DNA of 64,000 bases from Arbacia lixula (lineage: Eukaryota > Echinodermata > Echinoidea > Arbacioida > Arbaciidae): contig OZ022577.1 of NCBI GenBank assembly GCA_963669155.1, positions 25,513,865 through 25,577,864 of the forward strand. Reading direction: 5' to 3'. Under the pieces are notes generated by a model, which worked only from the letters and a program-made list of their open reading frames with translations, ran no database searches and was not told the origin of the DNA. Below are positions 43,080 to 64,000 of this stretch, piece by piece. The position numbers were made by a program, and so were the translations under genes. Each line of letters begins with the position of its first letter. Position 1 is the stretch's first letter.

Positions 43080-43249
43080 TGGTGAAAGTTCCGCGAAAGT
43101 TCCGCTCCTTAGCCTCCCCGCTGTTCCCCTCCCTCCGTTCCCCAGGTCCGCGGCTTGCGTGCAGCTTGCTACGCGTACGCTTCAACATCAACCCGGCCGC
43201 CCGACCCGCCGGCCGAGCGAGCTGTAAGAAAACCCTGATGTAACTGCTG
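43080..43249. other. GC-rich block at the left gap edge
   Basis: GC-rich sequence unlike its AT-rich surroundings, including CCCGGCCGCCCGACCCGCCG. It could be part of a CpG-rich exon, or foreign to this locus through misassembly next to the gap. The open frames crossing the gap are artefacts. Confidence 0.35.
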
Positions 43250-43449
43250 NNNNNNNNNNNNNNNNNNNNNNNNNNNNNNNNNNNNNNNNNNNNNNNNNNN
43301 NNNNNNNNNNNNNNNNNNNNNNNNNNNNNNNNNNNNNNNNNNNNNNNNNNNNNNNNNNNNNNNNNNNNNNNNNNNNNNNNNNNNNNNNNNNNNNNNNNNN
43401 NNNNNNNNNNNNNNNNNNNNNNNNNNNNNNNNNNNNNNNNNNNNNNNNN
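43250..43449. other. Assembly gap (200 N)
   Basis: Exactly 200 N, which looks like a placeholder or estimated size. CCTGATGTAA occurs immediately before (43233) and immediately after (43450) the gap. Confidence 0.98.
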
Positions 43450-45298
43450 CCTGATGTAAACACAACGCGTCGCATGTGCAGCAAGGATAGTTCTGTAGAC
43501 CCTGTTTTTCACAATGCCGGTATATTTTTAGTTCCTAAGACCCCACATTTTACGCGGAGTTTACCCTTGTAGTCAGTTCCTTATACCCTCATTTCAGGGT
43601 TTCGTGAGGCACACCCCCATCAAAATATAATTTGAGTGCCCCCCCCCCCCCCCCCCGGGACAAAACCTCACAGCGCTACCGCCATTATTGGAGTGAGCCT
43701 GTCCAAGACACGACTTGAAATCTAATAGTCAATATAATTCCACTTTCCACAGTCAGTTTCCAGTTCTAATCTTGTTAGGGGACCACTTAAACAGTATTTT
43801 CTTACTTTGTTGTGATGTTAAGAAAATATTATTTTGTTTTTACCTGCAAAAGGGTGACATCATTACCTTAAACTACAAAGCTTTAAGCTCATTGGCTCAT
43901 CGTGTGTATCCAATATATATATATATAGATATATATATACATATATATATATATAGTGGTGTAGTAAGCAACAGATCCTACAAAACCACAGACATAGTCG
44001 AATGAAACATGCTCCCGACATTGGCAGACACATTTCAATTCAATTACTTAATTCATTTTCCAGACGAGCTCATGAAACAATGCTTTAATTTTGCAGCTCA
44101 GTTGGTGATAGTTATTTTGGAAATGTCACTGCTGATCTGGAATTAGTTACAGGAATTCTGCAAATTTGAATTTAAACAAGTAAATTACATTCCAAAAGAG
44201 GAAACCCTAGCTTGGTTAGTTTAATGCATTGTCATTGATTGTTGTATTGTCTGACAATTTTAATTTGTAGGCTTATTTGTATCAAGATGACATATGAACT
44301 TCAATGAACATAATTAGGCATGAAGCTCGAAAACCCCAATCTTAGTGTACTTTTAATAATAATATATTTGCATTATTGATATTATTTTGTCAATTATGGG
44401 TTAGTGTTTGGGTTAGGGTCTCTATTCATGAGACAGAAAAGTTAAGAAAACATTGTTCAACAGCAGCATTCTCACTTGAAAGCATAACAAAACATATGAA
44501 GTACAATAGCAACCAATTTTAATTTTTTGACCCTTGGGTAACATTTTTCATGGAATTGCCCAATAAATTCATCTTTCTAGAGAATCCCACTATCTAGGCA
44601 TGCACACATATCACATAGTATTTCCATAAAAATAAGTACATTTCCTGCCAGGTAATTGCTTGTTATGTAGAACATAATCAGAAATGCAAGGTGCAGAATG
44701 TCCTGAGAATAATAAAAAAATCGCTCATATCCAACATACTCATTGTTCCTGTTCCAGCTGTTAATGCTGAGAAACACATTTAGAAATCTATGTTTGACTT
44801 AGAACTAAAATCCTAAATGAGGCTTTCCATTTCTTGTACTTTTGAATTATGCTCAGACGAATGCACAGTATACACTGTATGAATTGTACACGAGCCAGTC
44901 AAACATTGTCTTATAAATACAATGTGTCACTCTAATTTCTGCAGCATTCTCTCAATGTTCAATCATCTTCAACTGTATGCACTGCCCTCTAGCAGCATTT
45001 GTATGCACATGCCTGACTCTCTTCACAAGTTCAGTTGAATAGAAACAAAACCATCCCTGATATGAAGCATTGAGAAAAAGTTACAAAAGTAATCAAATTA
45101 ATCTAAAGGCCCTGTCCAATACTGCCCTGTAAAATTCCCGTCTGCCTCCATTTAAATATTTAAGTCAGACGACGGTAAACGTAACAATTTTTGGCCATGA
45201 AAGGTTTCTATTTTTACCACCTTTGCATCCCTACTGGCATTTAGTTTCAATGTGTTTCAATTACTATGTGTGTGTTTGGGGGGGGGAGTATGACTTAC
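43450..45298. other. NDUFAF5 intron 4 right part, unassigned DNA
   Basis: Contains a C17 run near 43640 and a (TA)n tract at about 43912-43955. No exon recognised before the exon at 45299. Confidence 0.4.
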
Positions 45299-45385: not shown

Positions 45386-47084
45386 CAGTTGTCCTCAAAA
45401 TTATTCATACCCCATTGAAAATAACAGTATTTGTTAGATTCTTCCTTTGTAAAAGCTATTAGGTTGGTACTTCCTGTGTATCTTTTGTCTACTTGTTGCT
45501 ATGCACAAATCCACATATGAGTTGGCTAAACTTCATTTGCATAATAATAGATAAGTCCAAAAGTTATTTTTCCCTCATGTTCAGAATTATTCATACCCCT
45601 GACAATACCTCAACAAAAATGTTCTTTCTTCATAGTATCCATTGTTTTCCTTTCCTGAGAATGTGTTAATCTTTGCCCTATAGTTTTTTCAAGATGTTCC
45701 AATGGATTAAATACCTTTTTTGTTGACCAAATGTTAAACTATTGTCAAACACATAGCATCTTTCCATAAGACTTTAAATAGAGGAAACGTGTTCTGGTCA
45801 TTCTCAGTTTCTGATCATCATGGTCAAGAAGAAGGAGCTCAGTGAGGACCTACGGCAACGTCTTGTGCGTGCCCACATTGAAGGAAAGGGTTATAAGGCC
45901 ATTTCGAAGCAATATGATGTCCCTGTGGCAACCGTGCAGAGCATTATCAACAAGCACAAGAAGTTCAATACTGTTAAAATCCTCTGTGGGCGTGGCAGGA
46001 AGAGAAAGGTGTCCCCCAAACTTGCCAGGAAAATCTGCCGAGAGGTCAACAACAACCCCCGGACCACAACCAAGGCCCTACTTCTAACGCTTGACCAGGC
46101 AGGGACGAAGGTATCACGGTCTACTATTGAGCGAGTCTTGCACAGAGGAGGTCTCCATGGACGTAGGCCTCGGAAGACCCCACTGCTCAGGAAGAAGCAT
46201 CTGGAGGCTCGCCTAGCCTTTGCTAAAGGTCATCTAAAGCAAGATTCCAGCTTTTGGTCAACCATCCTGTGGTCTGATGAGACAAAGTTGGAGTTATTTG
46301 GCCATATGGATGTTGAATACGTCTGGAGGAAAAAAGGAGAAGCATACACTCCAAAGAACACTGTGCCCACCGTCAAGCATGGTGGTGGAAACATAATGCT
46401 ATAGGGATGCTTCTCTTCCAGTGGCACAGGCAACCTCGTCAAGGTCCAAGGAATCATGAGAAAGGAGGATTACATCACGATCCTTGATGAAAACGTGAAG
46501 GAATCCGCTGAGAAACTCCAGCTTGGCCCTAATTGGAAGTACCAGCAGGACAATGATCCAAAACATACCGCCAAGGTAGTGAAGAAATGTTTCAAGGACA
46601 ATGATGTCAACGTCCTCGAATGGCCAAGTCAGAGTCCTGACCTGAATCCAATTGAGAACTTGTGGCGAGACTTGAAGACCAGAGTGTTGGCTAGGAAACC
46701 GACCAACCTGTCCCAGCTTGAGGCTTTTGCCAAGGAAGAGTGGGCCAACATCCCCCAGAAGACATGCAGGAAGCTTGTGGACACGTACAAGAACCGTCTA
46801 GAAGCAGTCATAAGAAACAAAGGCTATGCTATTGACTATTAAAGAAAGACATTGGACTCAGTAAACCTAGGGTATGAATAATTTTGAACATGGCATTTTT
46901 TGAAAATCCATGAATAAAATACCCCTGAAATGATGAATTTCTTGAGTTGTGTATTGTTGTTATTCTTTCACATGTTGGTCACGTATAACTGATATACACA
47001 CACTTGACAAAATGCATTCATTTCGTCACAAAAATAAAAAATCATAAAAATTAACAAGGGTATGAATAATTTTGAGGACAACTG
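45386..47084 (+). mobile_element. Tc1/mariner-like transposon, copy 2
   Basis: A complete 1699-bp element flanked by TA (45384-45385 and 47085-47086), with the same terminal and inner inverted repeats as copy 1. Its transposase is on the plus strand, antisense to NDUFAF5. The two copies therefore form a widely spaced inverted pair about 40 kb apart within one gene. Confidence 0.93.
45820..46842 (+). pseudogene. Tc1-family DD34E transposase, one nonsense mutation
   Basis: The frame is 340 codons from ATG at 45820 to the natural stop at 46840-46842. A TGG-to-TAG change at codon 195 (46402-46404) interrupts it between D153 and D244. All three catalytic residues (WSDETKLE, QQDNDP, SPDLNPIENLW) and the helix-turn-helix region are otherwise intact, with no frameshift. 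It differs from copy 1 at only a small number of residues. The position mutated here is still Trp in copy 1, and the reverse holds for codon 308. Confidence 0.93.
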
Positions 47085-48740: not shown

Positions 48741-51700
48741 TATCCCTGACCTCAAATGACCTTTGACCTTATCCTGTGACCTCCAAAGGTACCATAACAT
48801 GAAGGTACCCCCAGTGCATCTATGACCCAAGTTAGGTTGTAATCCAAGCAACCTATGTGAAGTTATTTGTCAAAAGAGAGTCTTGCAGGTAAACTTTAAC
48901 GTATGACCTCAAATGACCTTTGACCTTATCCTGTGACCTCCAACAGCACCATAACATGAAGGTACCCCTAGTGCATCTATGACCCAAGTTAGGTTGTAAT
49001 CCAAGCAACCTATGTGAAGTTATTTGTCAAAAGAGAGTCTTGCAGGTAAACTTTAACATAGAAAAAGAGAGTCTTGAACATACTCTTTAATATATGACCT
49101 CAAATGACCTTTGACCCTATCCTGTGACCACCAACGGTACCATAACATGAAGGTACCCCCAGTGCATCTATGACCCAAGTTAGGTTGTAATCCAAGCAAC
49201 CCATGTGAAGTTATTTGTCAAAAGAGAGTCTTGCAGGTAAACTTTAACGTATGACCTCAAATGACCTTTGACCCTATCCTGTGACCACCAACGGTACCAT
49301 AACATGAAGGTACCCCCAGTGCATCTATGACCCAAGTTAGGTTGTAATCCAAGCAACCTATGTGAAGTTATTTGTCAAAAGAGAGTCTTGCAGGTAAACT
49401 TTAACGTATGACCTCAAATGACCTTTGACCTTATCCTGTGACCACCAATGGCACCATAACATGAAGGTACCCCCAGTGCATCTATGACCCAAGTTAGGTT
49501 GTAATCCAAGCAACCCATGTGAAGTTATTTGTCAAAAGAGAGTCTTGCAGGTAAACTTTAACGTATGACCTCAAATGACCTTTGACCTTATCCTGTGACC
49601 TCCAACGGTACCATAACATGAAGGTACCCCCAGTGCATCTGTGACCCAAGTTAGGTTGTAATCCAAGCAACCCATGTGAAGTTATTTGTCAAAAGAGAGT
49701 CTTGCAGGTAAACTTTAACGTATGACCTCAAATGACCTTTGACCCTATCCTGTGACCACCAACGGTACCATAACACGAAGGTACCCCCTGTGCATCTATG
49801 ACCCAAGTTAGGTTGTAATCCAAGCAACCTATGTGAAGTTATTTGTCAAAAGAGAGTCTTGCAGGTAAACTTTAACGTATGACCTCAAATGACCTTTGAC
49901 CTTATCCTGTGACCTCCAACGGCACCATAACATGAAGGTACCCCCAGTGCATCTATGACCCAAGTTAGGTTGTAATCCAAGCAACCCATGTGAAGTTATT
50001 TGTCAAAAGAGAGTCTTGCAGGTAAACTTTAACGTATGACCTCAAATGACCTTTGACCTTATCCTGTGACCTCCAACGGTACCATAACATGAAGGTACCC
50101 CCAGTGCATCTATGACCCAAGTTAGGTTGTAATCCAAGCAACCCATGTGAAGTTATTTGTCAAAAGAGAGTCTTGCAGGTAAACTTTAACATTTGTGACG
50201 GACGACGGACGACGGACGGACGACGGACGGACGCCATTTGGATCCCTTAGTCTCGCCTTCACCTCCGGTGGGCGAGACAATAACCAGAAATATCGCGATC
50301 TCCGTTGCTACGCAAAAGAATTGTATCCCTCACACAATTCTGTGCACAAGTTAGGAAGCCTTCACCAAGAGTCTTGCAAGTAAACTTTAATGTATGACCT
50401 CAAATGACCTTTGACCTTATCATGTGACCTCTTACAGCACAATAACATGCAGGTGCCCCCAAGGCATCCATCATACAAGTTTGATTGCCATTGTAGCAAC
50501 ATGTGATGAGTTATGTGTGATAAGAGAGTCTTGCAAGTAAACTTTAACATATGACCTCAAATGACCTTTGACCTTATCCTGTGACCTTCAACGGTACCAT
50601 AACATGAAGGTACCCCCAGTGCATCTATGACCCAAGTTAGGTTGTAATCCAAGCAACCTATGTGAAGTTATTTGTCAAAAGAGAGTCTTGCAGGTAAACT
50701 TTAACGTATGACCTCAAATGACCTTTGACCTTATCCTGTGACCTCCAACAGCACCATAACATGAAGGTACCCCCAGTGCATCTATGACCCAAGTTAGGTT
50801 GTAATCCAAGCAACCTATGTGAAGTTATTTGTCAAAAGAGAGTCTTGCAGGTAAACTTTAACGTATGACCTCATATGACCTTTGACCTTATCCTGTGACC
50901 TCCAACGGCACCATAACATGAAGGTACCCCCAGTGCATCTATGACCCAAGTTAGGATGTAATCCAAGCAACCCATGTGAAGTTATTTGTCAAAAGAGAGT
51001 CTTGCAGGTAAACTTTAACGTATGACCTCAAATGACCTTTGACCTTATCCTGTGACCTCCAACGGTACCATAACATGAAGGTACCCCCAGTGCATCTATG
51101 ACCCAAGTTAGGTTGTAATCCAAGCAACCCATGTGAAGTTATTTGTCAAAAGAGAGTCTTGCAGGTAAACTTTAACGTATGACCTCAAATGACCTTTGAC
51201 CTTATCCTGTGACCTCCAACGGTACCATAACATGAAGGTACCCCCAGTGCATCTATGACCCAAGTTAGGATGTAATCCAAGCAACCCATGTGAAGTTATT
51301 TGTCAAAAGAGAGTCTTGCAGGTAAACTTTAACGTATGACCTCAAATGACCTTTGACCTTATCCTGTGACCTCCAACGGTACCATAACATGAACGTACCC
51401 CCAGTGCATCTATGACCCAAGTTAGGTTGTAATCCAAGCAACCCATGTGAAGTTATTTGTCAAAAGAGAGTCTTGCAGGTAAACTTTAACGTATGACCTC
51501 AAATGACCTTTGACCTTATCCTGTGACCTCCAAAGGTACCATAACATGAAGGTACCCCCAGTGCATCTATGACCCAAGTTAGGTTGTAATCCAAGCAACC
51601 TATGTGAAGTTATTTGTCAAAAGAGAGTCTTGCAGGTAAACTTTAACATAGAAAAAGAGAGTCTTGCACATACTCTTTAATATATGACCTCAAATGACCT

Positions 51701-51967
51701 TTGACATCATCACATGACCTCTGACAACACCATAACATGAAGATACCCCTAGTGCTTCTATCAACCAAGTGTGGCTGCCATTGCTGTAACAGTTGCCAAG
51801 TTATGGATCATAAGAGAGTCTTGCAGGTAAACTTTAACATTTGTGACGGACGACGGACGACGGACGGACGACGGACGACGGACGGACGACGGACGGACGA
51901 CGGACGGACGACGGACGGACGCCATTTGGATCCCTTAGTCTCGCCTTCACCTCCGGTGGGCGAGACA
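48741..51967. repeat. 157-bp tandem array bounded by GTCTCGCCCAC inverted ends
   Basis: About 18 units, mostly spaced by exactly 157 bases, sit in NDUFAF5 intron 2. Each opens with TGACCTCAAATGACCTTTGA and later has GAAGGTACCCCCAGTGCATC. The array consists of two blocks, each closing with a GGACGACGGAC microsatellite (about 50198-50232 and 51845-51923) and TTCACCTCCGGTGGGCGAGA. GTGGGCGAGAC is the inverse of the opening GTCTCGCCCAC. The sequence AATAACCAGAAATATCGCGA follows the opening motif at 48699 and again at 50279. The layout resembles non-autonomous elements with internal tandem repeats. One unit near 50400-50550 and the last are diverged. Confidence 0.92.
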
Positions 51968-52032
51968 AAAATGGTTATCTGTTAACTCAAGTAAAAGACT
52001 GTTCCACATAAAAGAATAGATTACTCACTCAC

Positions 52033-52073
52033 CGTGTCACATCTCTCACTCTGTCCACCATCCTGTAGGCCAT
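52033..52073 (-). CDS. ndufaf5: NDUFAF5 coding exon 2
   Basis: A 41-base micro-exon, acceptor TTCTCAG and donor GTGAGT. It reads MAYRMVDRVRDVT plus two bases of an Arg codon and matches the family's VGSRIADRVYDIPR. The frame joins exactly with exons 1 and 3. Confidence 0.9.
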
Positions 52074-52945
52074 CTGAGAAGGCAAAAACATTCAAAAATA
52101 GATTTTATCTTCAAGAAAGCAGACCACGTTCTGCTTCATACCATACCTCTTATAAATCAAATGAATTACCATTTTACACCACTGCCTAGCACTCACTATG
52201 AAATCATTTACTTAACCCGTTATTAACTGAGAACGCATATAAGCGGGCAATCTCTTTCCACTCAGATACTAAGCAGGACAAATCCCGTACAATCTGCTGT
52301 TCGAACAAAAGACGGCCAGCTATAAATAAACTTCAGATACCTTAATATCCCTGTGATTACTGCAGTTCCATGGCAAATTTTAACATCCCTACAAGACCAC
52401 CGTTCAAGACGACAGAAAATCTAAACAAAAGCAAGTGGTTAAAATACATTTTCCTTGTTCTAACCTATTAGAGGTAAGGAGTACTCGTGGTAAAGAATAC
52501 AGGACCCTGTAATAATAGCACTGCCATTTTACCATGAGTAGGCATATGAGTTCCAGTGCCATTTGATTTCTGGATACCAGAAAGGAAACATCTCAAATTT
52601 ATAAATCATTGAAATTAAATGAAATCCACGATTTTGGCACATAATCATTTCCATCGCTTCCACAGAGATGGCAAGGTCAGACAGGCCGTCTTCGTCAAAA
52701 ATAGTGATCCATTGAAAATACGGCCACTTCATGTGATGATGTGGTAGGAGTGACAACAGTTAAGCATTTTCTTGGGGGGAAGGGTGATCAAATGCAAATA
52801 TTCAATTATAAATGAGCCCATTTTTCTTTTTTTTTTCACCCCAATCTGGCCTTGATAGTTGCAGGTTAGGCACTCTTCTGTAGCATGACTCTCACACCAA
52901 TCACGTGAACCAAGTAAAGCCTCATGACACTCTTTTTACACTCAC

Positions 52946-53608
52946 CTCATCTTTGATGTAGTCATAAACTTCCACATCTTCAGCCATGGCAGCTCGATCT
53001 CGCTGCTTCCTTTTGGCATTTCGGTCAAACACGTTCATGATGGTCTCCTGCCTTTCTGGATGGGAGAGATTCTGGGAAGTGGACAAGTACCTTCGGGTGG
53101 ATACACCTTGAAACATGTTTCTTTCTATACATTTGACTGTGGGTTGGAAATTGTTGCTTTCAATAGGAGATCCTCTGGAAAGCAATGATGAAGTCTGCCT
53201 GTGGGGTGATAACCAGGAACATGTTGATATTGGCTGCTTTGTATTCAACATTACTGTCCTGTTGAATGCAGGCATTTCATGTCCACATTTGGAAGACAAT
53301 TTTGAAAAGGATGCATAGCCGCTGTGTGTAACAGCAATGTCACATGTTGGCGTGATTTGCTTGGAACAACTAGGATGATAGCGATTCGTCTTTGTTGATG
53401 ACCTCCGCACGATATGACAGGACTGAAGGTTACTGCTCACAGATGAAACCTCAGGCTGCATGATACACACTCCTACCATATTCTCTTTGCCGCCGTGATT
53501 CACGGAATGAGTTTGTGTCTGTGAAAGCCTGATGAGGCTCTGAAGACGGATCTTGGACATCCTTGAAGGAAAAAGCACGTCACAGCCCTTCACACAGCTC
53601 TGAAGCAT
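52946..53608 (-). CDS. ndufaf5: NDUFAF5 coding exon 1, with long N-terminal extension
   Basis: There are 221 codons from ATG at 53608 to the donor GTGAGT next to 52946. The last ~31 residues (MNVFDRNAKRKQRDRAAMAE ending YDYIKDE) match the start of the conserved NDUFAF5 core (NIFDRDLKRKQ...FDYLKEE). The preceding ~190 residues are Ser/Thr/His/Cys-rich with no domain I know; vertebrate proteins have about a quarter as many residues before this core. The first 40 residues are basic and hydroxylated with few acids, compatible with a mitochondrial presequence. A good acceptor (CTGACAG, ending at 53641) lies 32 bases upstream of the ATG, implying a separate non-coding 5' exon. A later internal ATG remains possible as the true start. 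Confidence 0.85.
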
Positions 53609-54039
53609 TTTTGCTGATTAGTCTCTTTAACTGCAGGATTCTGTCAGGAAGAAAAATAGAATGTGGAAAGAACGAAAGGTTAGAACAAATTATAAGACTG
53701 TAGCTTCATTCAATGATAAGTTTGAAACTGCTTGGAGACTGAATGGACAGCTTGTACCATTCACCGATTCATTCTTCTGAAATAAGTCCCCAGAACCAGG
53801 ACCAGACGCGATTGCACACATCAAGTAATTTGGCTCCACATATATAACCCCCCACCCCAACACACACACAAATGCCTTGGAGGAGTTTATGTCTACTGTA
53901 AGTCTACGTAGGGGTAGATATATTTAATACTTAGCCGTTTTCCTCCTGGGTGCATCGATCTGAAGTGTTCATATCATATTGGGTTAGTCTACATGTAGTA
54001 AACTAGTAAGAGTGTCTAATCCCCACACTAGCCGCAGAA

Positions 54040-54166
54040 CTGCTCCCGCTCCTGCTCCTGCTCACACTGCGTGAGAGGGCTGGTCGCAGTAAATCCCCAC
54101 ACCTGGGGCTGGGGGGGGGGGGGGGGGTTACTGCGACAAGCCCGCTCACGCAGTGAGAGGGAGCAG
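54040..54166. repeat. Inverted repeat with a G17 loop
   Basis: Left arm 54040-54092 (CTGCTCCC...GGTCGCAGTAA) pairs with right arm 54128-54166 (TTACTGCGACAAG...GGGAGCAG). Seventeen consecutive G (54111-54127) lie in the loop and sixteen more (54178-54193) just outside. Both runs follow GGGGCT. G-quadruplex formation is plausible. Confidence 0.8.
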
Positions 54167-54190
54167 TCCCGGGGCTAGGGGGGGGGGGGG

Positions 54191-54342
54191 GGGCATTTCA
54201 TGAAAGATGTCAGCACTGACAAGTTGTCTTTCTCCGCCAGTTGCCAAAGTAACAGTAAGAGGTGCCTCTCAGTGCCTCTCAGCCAATCAAAACCAAGGAT
54301 TTCACTGAAGTTGTAAGTGCTGACAACTTTCATGAAATGCCC
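54191..54342. mobile_element. Small MITE with GGGCATTTCATGAAAG ends
   Basis: Begins GGGCATTTCATGAAAGATGT with CAGCACTGACAA and ends with the inverse TTGTAAGTGCTGACAACTTT then CATGAAATGCCC. The interior has a small duplication of GTGCCTCTCA and an AGCCAATCAAAACCAAGGAT segment. No target duplication is certain because the left flank is a G-run. Confidence 0.7.
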
Positions 54343-55956
54343 TGACCTGCATGCGGCAGAAGCCAGGTGGGGTCTAGGCCTACTCGCGTCCGCCTCCCGG
54401 ACCATCCCGGCCCAGGAGACGAGCCGGCTAGCTGTATAGCACACGACCCTATCGTGTCGGCATGTGCTGTGTCGACTGACCAGACGGTAATTGCACCCGA
54501 GAGCGAGTCCTACAATATACGTTTAACTACTTCTATATACCATCTGGATGTATTGGTTACGCAGCAGGCTTCAATGCTCATACTTTGTTAAGATTTTATT
54601 GTGGTGTTTATTTTACCTTGTCTCAGAAGAGGGATGTTATGTAACTTCGGTCCTCGCTGCAGACAGCAACGTAACAAATGTAGGAGCCAATATTATGAAA
54701 TCATCCGTACAGTTTGAAATGTTTGTTTCTTACATTTTATATCTAAAATATTCAAATAGAACTCATAACTATCAAAGGTATTTCATAAAATCAAAAGCTA
54801 TTTTGGTAAGTCATTAAATAAAAAAGATATATTTTCATTATTGATTCGGTGAATTTTCAGAACTTATAGCATGCACCTCGTACATTTGTCCACTATGTTC
54901 AGTCAATTCGAAGTCACTGACGCTTGCTGTTGTCCTGCCTGATAAATCCCGAATTTCAACTTTGATGACTGTTTTCAACATTCTGTGATGCTTGTCTGTA
55001 AGTATTTCTTTTTATTTTCAAAGCTTATTTAAACATGGTATCTCTCTTACTGGTATGCCTTTTGTCAAAATGAATTAGGAGACTTCTTTAATTTCAGTTT
55101 CATATCACGCACGGGGCTGTGCTGGCCGCTGCGTTCCTCCAGCTCCCAGGCCAGCTGGCCGGGTTGCCAGTGCAGTGGCTGCATGCACTGATGCAGAACC
55201 ACAGGCACTGGGGTGACCATATTTTGCGCACATTTTGGCTTTCTTGACGATTCCAAGACACCTAGATTATTACACATAACGTTCAATACCTTAAAAGAAT
55301 GAGAATATCTTATAGAATCACATTTCATGGCCTGGTCCTGGAATTCAAATTTCAGATTAAAATCAATTTAATATCAAGAAATTTGCAACACTTGCTGACT
55401 CGGCCGTCGGCTCACGTGTGTGAGCTAATTTTGCACAGTCTTGAGTCTTGTGGTCGACAGCGAGTATCAAAACGTTAAAAAAACACCTCGTATTTTCCAG
55501 CACATACCAGCCATTTGAGTAAATACTTTACTTTTTTTATTACTATTAGGCCCTATTTGTTATTGATTTTATGGACGTTTAGTCTGTATCTTGTTCGACT
55601 GTTCGAAGAGTACAGTATCTTTGATAGTCCCATGTATGCATCGTGTATCCTCTCATTTAAGTGTATTTTACTATTTAGTGTTAGTGCGCAAAATGAGGAC
55701 ATGGGTGAAATCAGGACAAACCACCATACGTGTATCGCATTGCTTGACCTGCGGATGGGCTTTCGATATATTGGGCCTGTTTCTACATTAGAAAGCCGGT
55801 GACATCTCATGTGGAACTCACGCTAGTACCAATAATGCCAAACCTTTTTTCAGAGAGAATAGTGACTGAGATGTCAGTGACATTTTGCATATCGGTATCA
55901 GATACAAATTCTTTCTCACAAAACATTACAAAAACGTGTCATTTGTTCCATTTCAG

Positions 55957-56096
55957 CTTCAAGCGAGATGGATTCCCTCCAGATCAAACAGGCAGGGGTT
56001 GAGGTCATCCACAGGGCAGAGGTGGGAGCTGGCTCCAACGTGATCCCTCAGAGGGAGTACACACCCATTCTCAGCTTCACTTCCCGCCAGTATCAG
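55957..56096 (+). CDS. dicer: Dicer coding exon 1
   Basis: The exon follows acceptor TTTCAG and ends before donor GTCAGC. The ATG is at 55968-55970, with 11 untranslated bases in the exon, so a non-coding 5' exon is expected upstream. It encodes residues 1-43, ending REYTPILSFTSRQYQ, which matches the family's NIYTPRKYQ at the start of Hel1 (the Q-motif-like region). It ends in phase 0. Confidence 0.85.
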
Positions 56097-57429
56097 GTCA
56101 GCAGGCACTTTTAATCCTCTCACTATCTCATTCCCAAGTACTGAAGTGTGACATCATATCCATGGGCATGTTGTCAAGACGACAGGTTCTAAACTATGAG
56201 GGTAGAGTGATGATGATCATAGCAGGGACTCTCATTGGGAGTGCCAGATACTAGCCGCTAGACTATGTGGACTAATGAAAGTCTCACTTGAATGATGTTC
56301 TCTCGAACCAGAAGTTGGCAAAACAATGGATATGAGGAAACCGCTTCGGTACTAGGCATTGTAATATATCTGTATTTGAAATGGGACTAAGACTGGTCGA
56401 TACTGACAACCAAGTCCCATTGAGATGTTAACGATCACAGTGTCCTTTTTTTGCATTTAACTGTACCCTTTTTGGAGCTCCAGTGATATGACTATTTCCC
56501 ATTATCGATAAACATGTATATATCGACTTTTCCATTTCGCAATGTATTGATACGGCTGGATGGCGTCATTTAGTCAACACATGCTTCAAATGTATGGTCG
56601 CACGACCAAACAATAGACTTTACAGCCTACCCAGACCTCCGACAACGCGGCACCCACCACACTAGACCCAACAAATCTTTGAGGTGATTGATGAATACCA
56701 TGAGCGATGTTTTTATCCCATTTATCGCAGGCAACGGACAGGGCTGGGCGATTAACTGTAGTGTAAATCACAACCCCGTAAAATTATGTTGGGACTTGGG
56801 AGTGCAAAAATGTAGAAGGGTTTCAAACAAAGTGTTATCACTCCAGAGAGGGATAAACTGTGAGAGAGAATGATGAAAAGGAACTAAAAGAAGGAGAGAC
56901 CAGAGATAAATAAATATAGAGGGCCATTCTACGGAAATGTCAGACAAGTCACACATGTTTCATGTCACACAATTTGCAAACAAGGGTCTAGATCAAAACT
57001 GAGAAAATATTGGAGCTGAATCCATTACTCGATCAAGTAAATCAATCATCTATACCCTGACATGTGACTTGTAAGACACAACACGCGTGACTCGCCTGAC
57101 ACTTATATAGAATGGCCCAAGAGAGGAAGGAAGAGGGGAGAGAGAGAGCGACAGAGCTAGGATGAAAGTGAGCACCAGTAAGTACAGTTGAACATTTTTT
57201 TCCTCATGTGCATAATAGATTGTCATTTCTTTGGTGCCATTTACTGTACTGATTGAAGAAGGAAAGATGTTGTTTTTCTCTTCCCAGCCATTTTGCTTGG
57301 TCGTAGTCAGTTACAATATTTCTGTTTTTTTGTATTCTTTTCATGCAATGCAGGTTATTTTATGAGGTAATACAGTTTGTGATTTATTGCGCATACTAGT
57401 GAAGTTTTGATTGGTACTGTTTTCTTCAG

Positions 57430-57592
57430 CTGGAAGTACTGGAGACAGCCCTTGAGCAGAACACCATCGCTTGCCTGCAGTCAGATACAGAGAACACATT
57501 CCTTGCTGTCATGCTGATCAAGGAGCTCTCTACACCTGTGAGGAAACCACTCCCAGACAATGGCCAAAGGACTATTGTTTTGGTTGACTCAG
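57430..57592 (+). CDS. dicer: Dicer coding exon 2 (Hel1, motif I altered)
   Basis: Residues 44-97, acceptor TTTCTTCAG, donor GTAAAG. LEVLETALEQNTIACLQSDT then ENTFLAVMLIKEL aligns base-for-base with the Dicer segment [20 protein letters not shown] then KTFIAVLLTKEL. The Walker A loop GSGKT is therefore replaced by DTENT: the nucleotide-binding Lys is Asn-65, and both flanking glycines are acidic residues. RTIVLVDS is the motif Ia strand. The alignment is ungapped, so this is substitution and not a missed exon boundary. Confidence 0.93.
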
Positions 57593-57931
57593 GTAAAGTG
57601 TCGCAACTCAACTTTCAGGAACTGACGCAATACCAGTGCTGGTTGCATTGATAAAAGATTTAACGCTTTGGATGATACAGTGAAGTGTTATTATTGTGGT
57701 GAAAAAATGCTGTTTTCTTCAAATGTACTTTCCAGCAGAATCAAGTTTGAGACTTCTCTAGACTACTATCCATAGAAAAGTTGATATTTTGTTGTAACAA
57801 TGATTTCCTTCAACAAGAAGAATGAAGTATTTTGTGTATAGTTTGCCCTACATGAATGGATTAACATAGTTAGGCTGGAGCATGCTCCTCACAACATCCT
57901 ACATTTAAAACAAATGTTCTTATCCATGCAG

Positions 57932-58940
57932 AATCATCTTTGTCCACGTATGGAGTTGCAATCCGGACGCACACAGATTTGAGAGTGAGCGAATTCAGGA
58001 ACTCAAAGGAATCGCTCATTTGGGATCGAGCTAAGTGGCAGGATGAGATGGATAAATGTCATGTGGCCATTATGGACCCAGAGATCTTTCTGAAGCTCCT
58101 TCAGGCGTCATATTTCTCCCTCTCCATGGTTAATCTGCTCATATTGAATGAGAGCCATCACACCCTGCAATGCCTACACCCATACTTTCACATCATGCAA
58201 GAATTCCGCAAGTGCCACTCAGAGCGCCGCCCCCGGATCCTGGGGCTGACGGAATCAGTTCTGAACTGCGATTGCGACCCGCACTCGCTGTCCCAGCACA
58301 TCACTCAGCTGGAGGTGTCATTGCAGAGCACAGCCAAGATCGCCACCAATCTGACGGGCATCAGCAAGTACGGCACCAAGCCCAGGGAGGCAGTGGTGGT
58401 CTGTCAGAAGTACGAGGATTGCACAGAGCTCGTCCAACAGCTGAACAAGCTGCTCCAGGACGGCCTGAACCTGCTGGAGCAGTATGAGTACCCTATGAAG
58501 GCTAGGGACCTGGATGGGGAGGTGGTGGAGTCGGAGCGGGATCCTGTTCTCCCGTGCAAGCAGGCGTTGTCCGAATGCCTCCACGTGCTGTCGACGATTG
58601 GACCCCTGGGGCTGAAGATCCTGGTGCCCATGCTGGTGCGGGAACTCCTGAAGCTAGAGCGGCACGAGTTCCTGGACCTCCACCTCCTGTTCCTCCACCA
58701 GACCATGACGCAGCTCAGAATGGTGGTGCAGCTGTGCGACAGCACCATGTGCGAGGGGGGCAACTTCTACGATCTGAGGTTTCTGACTCCAAAAGTGCGG
58801 GGCTTGTTGGAGATCCTGGCCGAGTTCAAGCCAAAGGAAATGAGCCTGGATGAGAAAAATGCTCAGGCTGCTCGAGAAAGGACTAACAAGTATGCAGCCC
58901 GCAGGAAGACACAAAGACTTCAAAGAGGAATCCAGAAAAA
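57932..58940 (+). CDS. dicer: Dicer coding exon 3 (Hel1 motifs II-III and Hel2i)
   Basis: A 1009-base exon, residues 98-434, acceptor ATGCAG and donor GTATGT. AIRTHTDLRVSEF corresponds to the family's AVRTHSDLKVGEY. Motif II, DECH in Dicers, is NESH at 170-173 inside LSMVNLLILNESH, so the Mg-coordinating Asp is lost. Motif III LTAS is LTES (203-206). The Hel2i insert follows with good similarity (RPRILGLTE, GPLGLKILVPMLVRELLK, LRFLTPKVRGLLEILAEFKP). Codon usage is GC-rich and the whole exon is open, which argues against a decayed pseudogene. Confidence 0.96.
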
Positions 58941-59410
58941 GTATGTCATCACCTAACATTCTGATCTGATTTTCTCTTTGTGTTGTGTATATCTGGAAAA
59001 CATCAGTCAATTATAACCTGTGTAAGGATGGTGAGAGATCCTGGGAAAGCAAAGTAGTACTTGCAATACTCTGAGGGGGAAATTGGTTGAATTGGTTTAG
59101 AAATAGACACTTAAAAAAGAAAATCTGGTTGGAGGTTGGAAAGAAAATGTGTATCTCAAGATTCATGTATAAATAAATAAGTAACATCATGACTGAACCT
59201 CAAGAAGGAGGTCAATTTATACTTAAACTAACTGATATCAAAAGTAAGTGGAGACTATGTATTTTGTCAGTTGAGACATTTTCATTGTACAGTGTAGTTG
59301 TGTGATTTACATATATTTATGATTTTGTTAAATACATTGTGCACTGAAAAGGAATAGTTGGAACTCTTCAATTAATGTTGATCTTTCATGGTATCATGAT
59401 ATCTCAACAG

Positions 59411-59606
59411 TCAGAAGTGGAGGCCAGTTCCTGAAGCAGACCAAGAAGAAGAGGAGATCAGTGAGGAGGAGGAAGAAGAGGAGGACGATGAGGATGATGG
59501 TGTCGAGACCCAGCAGGCGGGGTTGTCGTCAGGGGCAGCCAATCTATGCGGCATCATCTTCATAGAGCACCGATACTCGGCAGCCGTGATGAGCAGACTG
59601 TTCAAG
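59411..59606 (+). CDS. dicer: Dicer coding exon 4 (acidic linker, start of Hel2)
   Basis: Residues 434-499, acceptor CTCAACAG and donor GTGAGC. A stretch of about 25 mostly Glu/Asp residues corresponds to the acidic linker seen in animal Dicers. It then reads LCGIIFIEHRYSAAVMSRLFK, matching [21 protein letters not shown] (motif IV region). Phase joins on both sides. Confidence 0.95.
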
Positions 59607-59837
59607 GTGAGCATTTACATTTACCACCCCATGTAAACGGTGTGATTCAGTTTATACTATGTATGTTTGAGTGTTTTATTGAATGTTCTAATAACCTCCA
59701 CAACCGAGGTGCATTTATGGCAATAGTAATATTCAGTGCTAGGAGCTAGTTGATAACTAGTAAGTAACTCACGATTATATACTCCTAGGTAAGCTAATAA
59801 TAATAATGATAATATTAATAATTTGTGTTGTTTGCAG

Positions 59838-60030
59838 AAACTATCCCGGCGAGACTCTAGGCTTGGGTTTCTGCAGTGCAGCTGCCTGACGCTGGGGATC
59901 GGCAGGCTGGACGTGGTCAAGAAATCCGCCGCCCAGGCCAAGAATCAGCGCAGGGAGCAGGAGGAGGTGCTGAGGAAGTTCAGGAGGAGGGAGATCAATG
60001 TCTTGTTTGCTACCAGCTCCTTAGAAGAAG
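59838..60030 (+). CDS. dicer: Dicer coding exon 5 (Hel2, motifs IVa-V)
   Basis: Residues 500-564 (last codon split), acceptor TTTGCAG and donor [26 protein letters not shown] followed by TSSLEEG matches [20 protein letters not shown] followed by TSIVEEG. The first half, around CSCLTLGIGRLDVVKK, is shorter and diverges from the usual ...ISSNFITGHGIGKN segment. Motif V itself is kept. Confidence 0.95.
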
Positions 60031-60078
60031 GTACAGGTCCATTCTGTAATCATGGTTTATTATGCATACCAGTATGTA

Positions 60079-60294
60079 CACTACAGCTCAAAGGAATTGG
60101 CATAGGGAAAGGGAAGGAGCCACAGTTTTGAACTGCGGTATATTTTGTCTAGGTCAGCATAAAACACGATGATTTTTAGGCTAAAGCATCGTGTTTCATG
60201 CTGAACTGGACAAAATATACCATGGTTTAAAACTGCGGCTCCTTCCCTTTCTTCGCTTGCCCTTTCCCTATGCCAATTCCTTTGAGCTGTTGTG
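60079..60294. mobile_element. Fold-back MITE family, copy D, in Dicer intron 5
   Basis: A 216-bp hairpin flanked by TA (60077-60078 and 60295-60296), with CACTACAGCTCAAAGG and TTTGAGCTGTTGTG ends. It is the same family as copies at 17262, 29578 and 34453. It begins 49 bases after the exon 5 donor. Confidence 0.88.
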
Positions 60295-60315
60295 TATGTT
60301 AACTCTATCCAATAG

Positions 60316-60458
60316 GTGTGAACTAACCCTAGTTTAACTGGGTGGTCCGTTTCAATCGAAACCGACCCACTAACATACTGCTAATTCTATTCAATTTGGT
60401 GTACCCGTTGTGTATGTTAAATTTATCCAACAGTTGTGAACTAACCCAGTGTAACCTG
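60316..60458 (+). repeat. Two decayed copies of the Dicer exon 6 acceptor and 5' end
   Basis: CTATCCAATAG|GTGTGAAC at 60304-60323 and TTATCCAACAG|TTGTGAAC at 60423-60441 duplicate the real CTATCCTACAG|GTGTGAAC at 60474-60492. The first copy also retains a GGTGGTCCGTTTCAATCGA stretch matching exon 6's GGTGGTCCGGTTCGATCGA. Splicing from exon 5 into either copy would give a TAA stop within four codons. Confidence 0.85.
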
Positions 60459-60484
60459 TATGTACGTTACAATCTATCCTACAG

Positions 60485-60672
60485 GTGTGAACTTTCCGCG
60501 GTGTAACCGGTGTAACCTGGTGGTCCGGTTCGATCGACCCACCCACTACCGCTCTTACATGCAGTCCAAGTCTAAGGCTAGAGCCCCGACCTCTCACTAC
60601 CTCATGCTGATTGAAGATGCGCAGCTCCAAACTTTCCTCAAAGACCTGCACAACTACCAGGAGTTTGAAAGG
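60485..60672 (+). CDS. dicer: Dicer coding exon 6 (Hel2, motif VI altered)
   Basis: Residues 564-626, acceptor CCTACAG and donor GTAAGT. It reads [20 protein letters not shown] then YRSYMQSKSKARAPTSHYLM and aligns to [20 protein letters not shown] and YVQSKGRARAPISNYIML. Motif VI QxxGRxR has become QSKSKAR: Gly to Ser-593 and the arginine finger position to Lys-594, with Arg-596 kept. Three residues (RCN) are inserted through a 9-base tandem repeat, CGGTGTAAC twice. The exon ends in phase 0. The next exon (DUF283 region) is not seen in the remaining 3.3 kb. Confidence 0.95.
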
Positions 60673-60682
60673 GTAAGTATAG

Positions 60683-60849
60683 TATTAGATTACTAGAAGT
60701 AGTAATACTAGTAGTAGTATAAGTAGTAGTAGAAGGATTAGTAGTAGTAGATGTAGTAACAGTAGAAGTAGTAGATCTAGTAGTAGTAGTAGTAGTAGTA
60801 GTAGAGGTGGTAGTAGTGGTAGTAGTAGTGGTAGCAGTAGTGGTAGTAG
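60683..60849. repeat. (TAG)n microsatellite, left part
   Basis: Imperfect TAG trinucleotides begin 10 bases after the exon 6 donor and are interrupted at 60850 by a fold-back element; the repeat resumes at 61665. Confidence 0.9.
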
Positions 60850-61664
60850 TACCGTAAATTTCGGCGTACAAGACGCAACGGCGGATAAGACGCATCCCGA
60901 CTTTGAGCACGCAATTTGAAAAAAAAAAAAAAATCGGGTCCGTATAAAGTTTCAACACATATACACATGTATGGGACTATATATACAGTCAACAACAAAA
61001 TAAATGGCTTTGATAGCCTGACACAATTGATGTACCAGTAATACGATCTCAATCACATCACCAGCATACTTAACCCGAACTAAAAAAGCCCCAGGAGTAG
61101 TATTTGTCCGCGAGACAACTCAAAGAAACCGCTGATCAAATGGCTTAAACTAGAAAACTCCGTTTGATGGAGACTGATGGAGATTGATGCTATTATCAGC
61201 TCTGGCCACAAGCTGGCGCTAGTACACAAAGATCGTTCTTTGTCATAGAGTGTCCCAATGTAGCTCTATGTTCTTTGTGTACTAGCGCCAGCTTGTGGCC
61301 AGAGCTGATAACAGAATCACAGAATCAATCGCAGTCTCCATCAAACGGAGTTTTCTAGTTTAAGCCTTTTGATCAGCGGTTTCTTTCACTTGTCTCGCGG
61401 ACAAATACTACTCCTGGGGATTTTTTAGTTCCAGTTAAGTATGCTGGTGATGTGATTGAGATCGTATTACCGGTACAACAATTGTATCGGGCTATCAAAG
61501 CCATCCACTTTTTTTAATGTCACACAATGCATAGTCCCATACAGGTGTATACGTGTTGGTTTGAAAGACCTGATTTTTGCTAACGCCGTGTATAAGACGC
61601 ACCTGGACTTTGGCGTGATTTTCAAGGGAAGAAACATGCGTCTTATACACCGAAAAATACGGTA
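60850..61664. mobile_element. 815-bp fold-back element inside the (TAG)n tract
   Basis: Ends TACCGTAAATTTCGGCGTA and the inverse ACCGAAAAATACGGTA. Both terminal regions carry AAGACGCA or TGCGTCTT. The arms pair over nearly the whole length; for example ACTAGAAAACTCCGTTTGAT and its complement are at about 61150 and 61335, and GCGCTAGTACACAAAGA pairs near the centre. No transposase is present. Non-autonomous; superfamily not assigned. Confidence 0.85.
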
Positions 61665-61686
61665 GTTGTAGTGGTATTAGTTGTAA

Positions 61687-61758
<72 letters not shown>

Positions 61759-61813
61759 CAGTAGTAATAGTCGTAGTAGTAGTAGCAGTAGCAGTAGTAA
61801 TAGTAATAGTAGG
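61665..61813. repeat. (TAG)n microsatellite, right part
   Basis: More than twenty TAG units, the continuation of the tract at 60683-60849. The poly-Leu open frame on the complement is an artefact. Confidence 0.92.
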
Positions 61814-62049
61814 TGTTCAAAAAAAACAATCACAACTTTTATCAAGCTGAACTTGATACATCATGAAGTCAAAGATTATCACATTTTTTTCAAACTGTTT
61901 TGTTTTTACATTTCAATTAATTGTTACATTTTTAGATCCATATTTGTCAAAATATAGATCTCATTAGATATTCACTGCATTATTACAAGAAAAGTAATGG
62001 ATCAAATGTCACAAACCTTGCTTCTAGAACATTTGATATTGCTTGACCT

Positions 62050-62554
62050 AGAGGGATAGTTCACCCTGAAATTAAGTTGGTGTCAGTAAAAGCAGACACA
62101 TGAAAGAAATATGTTACTGAAGGTTTGATGAAAATCTGTCAAAGGATAAGAAAGTTATGATATTGTACATTTTTTATTTTGTGACGTTACTCGCGAGGTA
62201 CTCTCCCATATGTTGTGTACAGGGTTTTTTTTTTAAATGTCCATTTTCTCAAAAAGATATGCATACTTTTACCTGTGCATTTCATACATTATTAGATTCC
62301 AGTTTTTATACACATACCTCTATGGAAAAAAAAAGATTCCGTTTTCAAAAACAGAAAAAAGAATAATTTATCGAATCGTACAGCACACAACATATTGGAG
62401 AGCACCTTACATGTGACATCAAAAAATCTAAATTTCAAGAGATAATAATTTTTGTAATCCTTTAATGGATTCTTGTCAAACCTGCACTATTGTGCTTCTT
62501 TGATATTTCTGTTTTTATTGAAACCAACTTAATTTCAGGGTGAACTATCCCTTT
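62050..62554. repeat. Fold-back MITE (AGGGATAGTTCACCCTGAAA ends)
   Basis: The left end AGGGATAGTTCACCCTGAAA with TTAAGTTGGT and the right end ACCAACTTAATTTCAGGGTG with AACTATCCCTTTAA are exact inverted repeats of about 30 bases. The interior contains TTTGTGACGTTACTCGCGAG and a CATATGTTGTGTAC segment with an inverted partner (ACACAACATATT). Related to 47445-47905. Confidence 0.82.
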
Positions 62555-63584
62555 AATGATGTGTCAATTCAAGCTTGATTTGAGTTGTACCTTATTTTTA
62601 AAGCTTTTCCAAAAGTGTCAGAATGTTTTTTTGACACCTAGTATTAACGAAAATGATAGTGTAAGTTTTTATATGTCATCTCACATCACTTTCATTATAA
62701 ATTCATATTTCAAGTACTGCTACATAAAATTATTATAGTGGCATGAACAAAAATTTGTTCCTGTCAAGACATCTCGGTGACTGAGTAGGAAATGCAGCAC
62801 TTCCTGTGAAGGTTCAAAGATGATGGCATGAGCACATGCACATTTTAAAACCAATTCTGACATGGGGGGAAGGGGGGGGGGATCAGTTAATGACACCCCC
62901 CCCCCCCCCCCACCCCAAGTCAAAACCTGCTCTCATAAAGCCCAGTCAGAATAGAGTTACTGTAACTGTTCTTCATCATGGTGACTCTCATTCAGACCTC
63001 AGTAGAAATACAGTGGGTTGCCTGTGTGGTGGTGTGCATCAAGTGAGAGGGTCTTTTTCAGCAGTGTGTGGAAATGTTCCGGTTAGGAACCAAATATCTT
63101 GGTACTGGAACCAGGCAGTTTTTCATTCGTGTTCGCTATGCGAGAAGTGTTAAACCGGATAAGGCAACAGCAAAGGTATAAATATTTTTTTAATGCGATT
63201 AGAATTTTAAATAATTTGTGATTTTTCAGAATGTGAATGTACAGTATTGTGGAGATTGTTAGCCCGGGGTTTTCTCGACAGCTTATGAATATTTATGAGT
63301 GTATATCTTGCACATCTGCTCTTAACTACTTCGCATCAATGTCACTCGCCCGTCGGGCATTATCTGATTGGTCTAGGCATCTCGGCCTCGTGAGCTAACA
63401 CAGCATTTCCTTAGCCCAGTACTATTTTTCGTTTCTGTTCTCACTGGCGCTCTTAGCCCCGGACTCTTTGGCATGGCCCTGCAATTGCGGGGCTAACCCT
63501 GCTTTTTTGCAGGGCCAAATAATCCCATATTATTGGTGGGGCTAGCCCACTTTGGTAAAAAACAATGTGAACAGAAAGTGGTCT
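62555..63584. other. Dicer intron 6, unassigned DNA
   Basis: Contains G- and C-runs at about 62865-62881 and 62897-62911. A plus-strand stretch at 63049-63170 is open between an AG and a GTATAA but does not resemble any Dicer segment, so I do not call it an exon. Confidence 0.4.
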
Positions 63585-63655
63585 AAGCTTAGCCCCATAC
63601 TATAGGTGGGGCTAAGGCCCCCCTTAGCCCCACCTATAGTACGGGGCTAAGGAAT
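63585..63655. repeat. Palindrome of TTAGCCCC / GGGGCTAA
   Basis: CTTAGCCCCATACTATAGGT then GGGGCTAAGG is followed at once by the inverse CCTTAGCCCCACCTATAGTA then CGGGGCTAAG. Related GGGGCTA fragments occur upstream from about 63260, so the palindrome may be the end of a larger repeat. Confidence 0.8.
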
Positions 63656-63691
63656 TTTTTTCCAGTGTAAAAAGCATATAAGCATTCCGAC

Positions 63692-63906
63692 ATTGCGCAA
63701 TCCCATGTCCACGAAAGATTTAGCAGCCTGACATTGCGCAATCCCATGTTCACCAAACATTTAGCAGACATTGCGCAATCCAATGTCCATAACAGATTTA
63801 GCAGCCTGACATTGCGCAATCCCATCTTCTCATCGCTCTGAGCAGCCTGATATTGCGCAATCATTGAATCGCTGCCTGAATGTTTGTGTTTGAGGTATTG
63901 CGCAAT
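63692..63906. promoter_or_regulatory. Six ATTGCGCAAT palindromes in a ~41-bp tandem repeat
   Basis: Exact 10-base palindromes lie at 63692, 63733, 63770, 63811, 63852 and 63897 (first base). ATTGCGCAAT is the optimal symmetrical binding site of C/EBP-family bZIP factors. The flanking unit (AGCAGCCTGAC...CCCATGTCCA) is repeated but diverging, while the palindrome is unchanged in all six. Function is inferred from the motif only. Confidence 0.6.
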
Positions 63907-64000
63907 GGTTCATCACTATGACTTTGTGTTTTCAGTAATCACGCACACATGCTTTGTGGCACTTTGATAGCGATGCTGTCTCGTCACAGTAGCCCTGTTC

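Follow-up and report, generated by a model that had tools for sequence, protein, structure and literature searches.

Degenerate or undetected ATPase domains are reported for arthropod Dicer-1 and for the Dicers of molluscs and annelids (PMC11114477, PMC3991619, PMC10159624), and in molluscs variants of the DECH motif and loss of DICER2 have been published (PMC11114477). Drosophila Dicer-1, whose helicase is degenerate, is reported to be ATP-independent (PMC10328071). According to Zapletal et al., mice tolerate the K70N ('GNT') allele, the ATPase being dispensable for viability, and removal of Hel1 is lethal (PMC9645528). In human Dicer the K70A change is reported to lower ATPase activity about 400-fold, with little effect on cleavage of microRNA precursors (pre-miRNA) (PMC11658451). 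Here we describe the Dicer of the sea urchin Arbacia lixula, which begins in a stretch of 64,000 nucleotides (the window; contig OZ022577.1 of assembly GCA_963669155.1, positions 25,513,865 to 25,577,864) and in which the ATPase motifs are naturally eroded. The motifs were placed by alignment to human Dicer (5zak, E 1.6e-107) and to 28 other Dicers:

57478..57498, plus strand: motif I codons Q-S-D-T-E-N-T (residues 60-66; the Walker A lysine is Asn-65)
58147..58158, plus strand: motif II codons N-E-S-H (residues 170-173; DECH in most relatives)
58246..58257, plus strand: motif III codons L-T-E-S (residues 203-206; LTAS or LTAA in most relatives)
60562..60582, plus strand: motif VI codons Q-S-K-S-K-A-R (residues 590-596; QSKGRAR in most relatives)

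The residues named in the original prediction, made from this DNA alone (N65, NESH at 170-173, LTES and QSKSKAR), were recovered from the spliced frame and the alignments. The loss of motifs II and VI that it describes needs some refinement: NESH replaces DECH but retains the E and the H, and in motif VI the glycine and the first arginine are changed, the latter to lysine, but the last arginine is kept. Substitutions affect the Walker lysine, the glycine preceding it and the DECH aspartate. The residues of an ATP-driven, Dicer-2-like helicase (GxGKT, DECH and the GR of motif VI) are not in place, 9 of 22 motif positions being altered. The Pfam DEAD and ResIII models were absent among the families matched at E up to 1 in the 626-amino-acid piece of Dicer encoded in the window; PF00270 is listed for the Dicer of Strongylocentrotus purpuratus. 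Judged by these residues, the helicase is very probably unable to bind ATP or to hydrolyse it. It seems very unlikely that it still binds ATP, or hydrolyses it slowly, by means of unusual residues. Human Dicer was long deemed inactive and yet a weak, low-turnover ATPase has been reported for it (PMC11658451), and the last arginine of motif VI and the glutamate of motif II remain in A. lixula; against this stand the three changed residues, and K70A alone accounts for the 400-fold loss in the human enzyme (PMC11658451).

The first six exons of the gene lie in the window:

55968..56096, plus strand: Dicer exon 1 (ATG, residues 1-43; S. purpuratus Dicer tblastn match 55968-56099)
57430..57592, plus strand: Dicer exon 2, carrying motif I (tblastn E 1e-16)
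57932..58940, plus strand: Dicer exon 3, remaining Hel1 and Hel2i (Dicer partner-binding domain; PF20930, E 1.6e-14)
59411..59606, plus strand: Dicer exon 4, acidic linker and start of Hel2 (splice model, tblastn)
59838..60030, plus strand: Dicer exon 5, Hel2 (splice model, tblastn)
60485..60672, plus strand: Dicer exon 6, Hel2 with motifs V and VI (PF00271, E 9.7e-10, residues 534-593)

As had been predicted, the six exons are in frame with canonical splice sites, each having AG before and GT after it, and joined they give one open frame of 626 amino acids; the interval first proposed for them, 57430..60672, takes in exons 2-6 but not exon 1, which lies upstream. The gene was traced through 39 kb beyond the window with the S. 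purpuratus Dicer as guide. The full model has 19 exons with all internal junctions GT-AG, encodes 1,828 amino acids (5,487 coding bases including the stop) and spans window positions 55968 to 82556, that is, 18.6 kb past the window end. It matches the S. purpuratus Dicer end to end and holds in one protein a helicase, DUF283, PAZ, two RNase III domains and a dsRBD, the domain set of a Dicer (Pfam PF03368, PF02170 and PF00636 at the locus; the helicase part matches PF20930 and PF00271). In protein searches this part scored best against the Dicers of S. purpuratus (66%), Lytechinus pictus (66%) and Diadema antillarum (60%). A pseudogene is ruled out by the complete frame and the conserved C-terminal two thirds. 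Foldback inverted repeats were seen in two introns: one after exon 6 at 60994-61514 (arms 60994-61176 and 61332-61514, 183 nucleotides, 92% complementary, with a nested pair of 48 nucleotides) and one after exon 5 at 60107-60251 (arms of 69 nucleotides, 87% complementary). Long hairpins could arise from these repeats in the Dicer pre-mRNA.

All eight catalytic acidic residues of RNase IIIa and IIIb are present; in human numbering we take these positions to be E1316, D1320, D1561, E1564, E1705, D1709, D1810 and E1813. The PAZ and 5'-pocket region is mostly retained, with some R to K changes, and the partner-binding domain is still recognised in Hel2i (PF20930). Degenerate ATPase motifs are thus combined with an intact dicing core, the sequence pattern of an ATP-independent Dicer serving microRNAs (miRNAs). 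As an explanation of the whole we consider it likely that this is an ATP-independent, miRNA-dedicated Dicer in which the helicase persists as a scaffold. Such an enzyme would cut pre-miRNA without ATP, and likewise long double-stranded RNA (dsRNA) that reaches the end-pocket of PAZ. The helicase region would be a non-catalytic scaffold touching the pre-miRNA loop, and Hel2i would dock a partner of the Loqs/TRBP type. The eleutherozoan lineage would have given up ATP-driven threading of long dsRNA, after which the motif residues could drift. Of the proposal that ATP-driven dsRNA processing was lost and the fold kept, the full-length Dicer with destroyed ATPase motifs is observed; the fold, the absence of ATPase activity and the loss of dsRNA processing are what we infer from it. 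Asn-65 is the same change as the engineered mouse K70N. The starfish Asterias rubens is reported to lack siAGO, and the sea cucumber Apostichopus japonicus to show no signature of endogenous small interfering RNAs (PMC11114477).

The motifs were then compared in 29 Dicers, the A. lixula protein and 28 homologues out of 151 retrieved, with all named echinoderm and hemichordate matches included; the protein searches scored the roughly 7,970 candidates sharing most words, and the database may contain further echinoderm Dicers. Out of 24 motif columns chosen, 22 did not vary among nine deuterostome Dicers (two crinoids, two hemichordates, amphioxus and four gnathostomes). At these 22 positions A. 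lixula has 9 changes, Lytechinus 8, S. purpuratus 6, Diadema 5, the sea cucumber Holothuria 6, Acanthaster 4 and Asterias 3. No change was found in the crinoids, hemichordates and amphioxus, all of which belong to the nine that define the set, nor in Tribolium Dcr-2, Limulus, Pycnogonum, a tick, Hydractinia and one unnamed sequence. Elsewhere the counts were 9 for D. elegans Dcr-1, 10 for Parnassius Dicer, 1 for a nematode, 2 for a hagfish, 5 for Octopus, 6 for Haliotis and 7 for Capitella. The hagfish (Eptatretus), a vertebrate outside the gnathostomes, has QSKGCAQ, not QSKGRAR, as motif VI.

Motif I is intact in both crinoids (QTGTGKT) and both hemichordates (QTGGGKT). It reads QSNAGKT in Asterias, QTDTSKT in Acanthaster, QSASAKD in Holothuria, QNANEKT in Diadema, QSGTEKT in S. 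purpuratus and Lytechinus and QSDTENT in A. lixula, and none of the seven sampled eleutherozoan Dicers retains an intact Walker A. Motif II is DECH in Asterias, Acanthaster, Diadema and S. purpuratus, DDCH in Holothuria, DEFH in Lytechinus and NESH in A. lixula. For motif III, LTES is shared by A. lixula and S. purpuratus, Lytechinus has LSES, Diadema and Holothuria have LTAS, and the starfish STAS or MTAS. Motif VI is QSKGRAR in Asterias, crinoids and hemichordates, LSKGRAR in Acanthaster, QSKARAR in Holothuria and QSKSKAR or QSKAKAR in all four urchins. Loss of the Walker lysine, and likewise of the DECH aspartate, was seen only in A. lixula among the sampled echinoderms. Adjoining motif V, an insertion of three residues (PRCNRCN / PRCNGCN; residues ~570-572, exon 6) occurs in A. 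lixula, S. purpuratus and Lytechinus and is absent in Diadema and the other aligned Dicers.

Decay of the ATPase site is therefore common to the seven sampled eleutherozoans, differing in degree and partly in the residues changed. The loss reported for A. lixula stands, but an event private to this species is ruled out by the motif table. Since the decay is of unequal degree and partly affects different residues, it looks like relaxed constraint followed by drift. The stages proposed are changes in Walker A residues (7/7), in motif VI (urchins and sea cucumber), in motif III (three urchins) and in the Walker lysine and DECH aspartate (A. lixula). We lean towards the view that Eleutherozoa gave up an ATP-driven Dicer that crinoids and hemichordates still encode, with the lineages now at different stages.

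The constraint on the helicase was assessed by the ratio of pairwise distances in Hel1 and PAZ, with ranges from 1000 column bootstraps and domain borders set by hand; 2 of 16 pairs gave no ratio, having too few RNase IIIb columns. The ratio was 2.08 (1.45-3.03) for A. lixula-S. purpuratus, 3.41 (2.07-5.69) for S. purpuratus-Lytechinus, 3.13 (2.26-4.51) for A. lixula-Diadema, 2.51 (1.88-3.46) for A. lixula-Holothuria and 3.40 (2.38-4.96) for Asterias-Acanthaster. It was 0.60 (0.35-0.95) for the crinoids and 0.63 (0.37-0.99) for the hemichordates, and the bootstrap ranges are disjoint, the lowest eleutherozoan bound being 1.45 and the highest crinoid or hemichordate bound 0.99. Thus Hel1 is relaxed in 5/5 eleutherozoan pairs relative to the outgroups with intact motifs. 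Ticks gave 0.95 (0.68-1.26), Tribolium Dcr-2 1.49 (0.99-2.37), and two mollusc pairs with eroded motifs 3.33 and 2.15. Branch lengths on a fixed tree agree with these ratios: the Hel1 and PAZ crown lengths were 0.15/0.29 in crinoids, 0.13/0.23 in hemichordates, 0.89/0.25 in asteroids, 1.23/0.48 in echinoids and 0.57/0.20 in gnathostomes, and the same values were obtained when the sums were recomputed independently of rooting.

The same rates bear on relaxed decay toward loss of the helicase, in which the ATPase is gone, the helicase is nearly functionless and its frame is kept because it precedes PAZ and RNase III. This we regard as unlikely, although among eight domains Hel1 evolves fastest in both echinoids and starfish (over the seven eleutherozoans Hel2i equals it, owing to the sea cucumber), and motif columns vary nearly like the remaining helicase, with a mismatch of 0.331 vs 0.490 in the seven eleutherozoans and 0.028 vs 0.295 in crinoids and hemichordates. 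Considerable identity to S. purpuratus remains in Hel1 (68.6%), Hel2i (69.2%) and Hel2 (71.7%), with 94.3% in RNase IIIb and 97.3% in the dsRBD, and the partner-binding domain is still recognised. In neutral simulations of the helicase coding sequence no run remained stop-free at the divergence observed (0/1000 at 34% amino-acid difference, 0/1000 at 40%), though stops would be selected against here in any case.

The number of Dicers was determined by profile searches of the genome (606,990,701 bases, 590 contigs), run exon by exon with the best candidates scored. DUF283 (PF03368) gave one match, at the Dicer locus. PAZ gave four, one at the Dicer locus and one on each of three other contigs, which presumably carry Argonaute/Piwi genes. 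RNase III also gave four, two at the Dicer locus and two on another contig (C13), presumably Drosha. A single Dicer was found, and the suggestion that the gene is one of two paralogues was rejected, no second Dicer having been found by these genome-wide domain searches. One Dicer, of the Dicer1 type, is likewise reported for S. purpuratus, the sole echinoderm studied by Gao et al. in 2014 (PMC3991619). In a maximum-likelihood tree of 23 Dicers, A. lixula grouped with S. purpuratus and Lytechinus (support 99), within echinoids (100), Eleutherozoa (100) and echinoderms (100), and was split from Tribolium Dcr-2 and the tick and nematode Dicers with support 81, as is proper to a Dicer-1. The tree placed the sea cucumber outside starfish and urchins, weakly (62), unlike the imposed species tree; the pairwise Hel1/PAZ ratios and the counts of motif changes are independent of its topology. 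The A. lixula gene is a Dicer of the Dicer-1 class and the only Dicer found.

Several points weigh against an ATP-independent, miRNA-dedicated Dicer. A raised Hel1/PAZ ratio alone is not diagnostic of motif loss: gnathostomes reach 3.23 and 2.83 though all 24 motif columns are kept, and the amphioxus pair, with intact motifs, has 2.46 in a wide range (1.16-5.48). Nor are intact motifs proof of an ATPase, or decay a measure of its loss. A second Dicer, if very divergent, could have been missed by the exon-by-exon search. The K70N mice are reported to be not quite normal, one mirtron miRNA being doubled (PMC9645528). On the RNase IIIb side, the residues by which Hel1 and RNase IIIb lock together in mammals are mostly not kept (mouse Y1688, V1755 and F1760 are R, Y and F, placed by offset from human numbering on this side only), so that the mammalian closed state was not recovered there and, judging by these residues, the lock is probably not conserved. 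Contacts of the scaffold must then differ, and the scaffold role known from mammals is not simply transferable. Finally, N65, N170 and S172 come from one assembly, and base errors, or alternative exons in which the motifs are intact, could in principle explain them. Such an artefact is highly improbable, as degraded motif I is found in separate records from three other echinoids and three other eleutherozoans, and the splice borders and frame are flawless. A relaxed tblastn search with motif I peptides from crinoids and hemichordates and motif II peptides from crinoids against window positions 50001-64000 and the 39 kb downstream (~53 kb) matched the known exons and found no second exon with GKT or DECH (best other match E 0.27), and no intact motif turned up when positions 55000-61000 were scanned by pattern in all three plus-strand frames. 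An alternative exon in the 53 kb searched was therefore rejected.

With the ATP-independent reading retained, the A. lixula enzyme can be set beside its closest counterparts. It shares with the fly-type Dicer-1 the full dicing machinery and eroded motifs I, II and III, with the same number of changes as D. elegans Dcr-1 (9/22), but different residues are changed and KGRAR is retained in motif VI of the fly protein. The parallel drawn with fly Dicer-1 in the original prediction is apt in the sense of how the enzyme may work; flies, however, also own a second, ATP-driven Dicer-2, whereas one Dicer was found in A. lixula, and the single-Dicer molluscs and vertebrates are closer. The mollusc and annelid Dicers (Haliotis, Octopus, Capitella) are likewise Dicer-1 proteins with degraded motifs, but belong to a separate lineage with other residues changed, and echinoderms have close outgroups with intact motifs. 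Vertebrates (human, mouse) also have a single Dicer and a fast Hel1 relative to PAZ (2.83, 3.23), but their motif columns are invariant in four gnathostomes and their RNase IIIb lock is mostly unshared with A. lixula. The S. purpuratus ortholog (XP_011668948.1; 66% over the helicase part) shares QSKxKAR, LTES and the insertion at motif V, but retains the Walker lysine (EKT) and DECH.

Loss of the ATPase is already known as a kind of event; what appears to be new is the graded and unusually clean series in echinoderms, of which no description was found in the accessible portions of the open-licence PMC literature searched. Aderounmu et al. in 2023 named mollusc and echinoderm Dicers as groups needing study (PMC10159624). 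As the series runs from intact (crinoid, hemichordate) through partly eroded (starfish, sea cucumber, other urchins) to most eroded (A. lixula), the loss can be tested with living proteins, and it bears on why animals abandoned an ATP-powered Dicer. The natural Lys-to-Asn change mirrors the mouse K70N allele, and evolution has apparently accepted the same substitution. If true, the eleutherozoan loss would be a further independent one beside those of arthropod Dicer-1, spiralians and vertebrates, and would offer a natural experiment on the trade proposed between the Dicer helicase and RIG-I-like receptors, a link based here on the reported expansion of these receptors in S. purpuratus (PMC8998645).

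Elsewhere in the window, an open reading frame of 231 codons at 52925-53617 (minus strand) lies head to head with Dicer. Pfam gave nothing for it at E up to 1, and a search of PDB gave only six weak homeobox matches at E 0.3 or more; its end stretch may resemble NDUFAF5-type proteins. A Tc1/mariner (Sleeping Beauty-like) transposase occurs twice, at 4551-5510 (minus strand), where it is open over the matched part, and at 45778-46839 (plus strand), where it has an in-frame stop. A run of N at window positions ~43228-43527 marks a gap or a withheld stretch. Downstream of exon 6, short direct repeats around GACATTGCGCAATCCCATGT were spotted by eye at window positions ~63680-63880.

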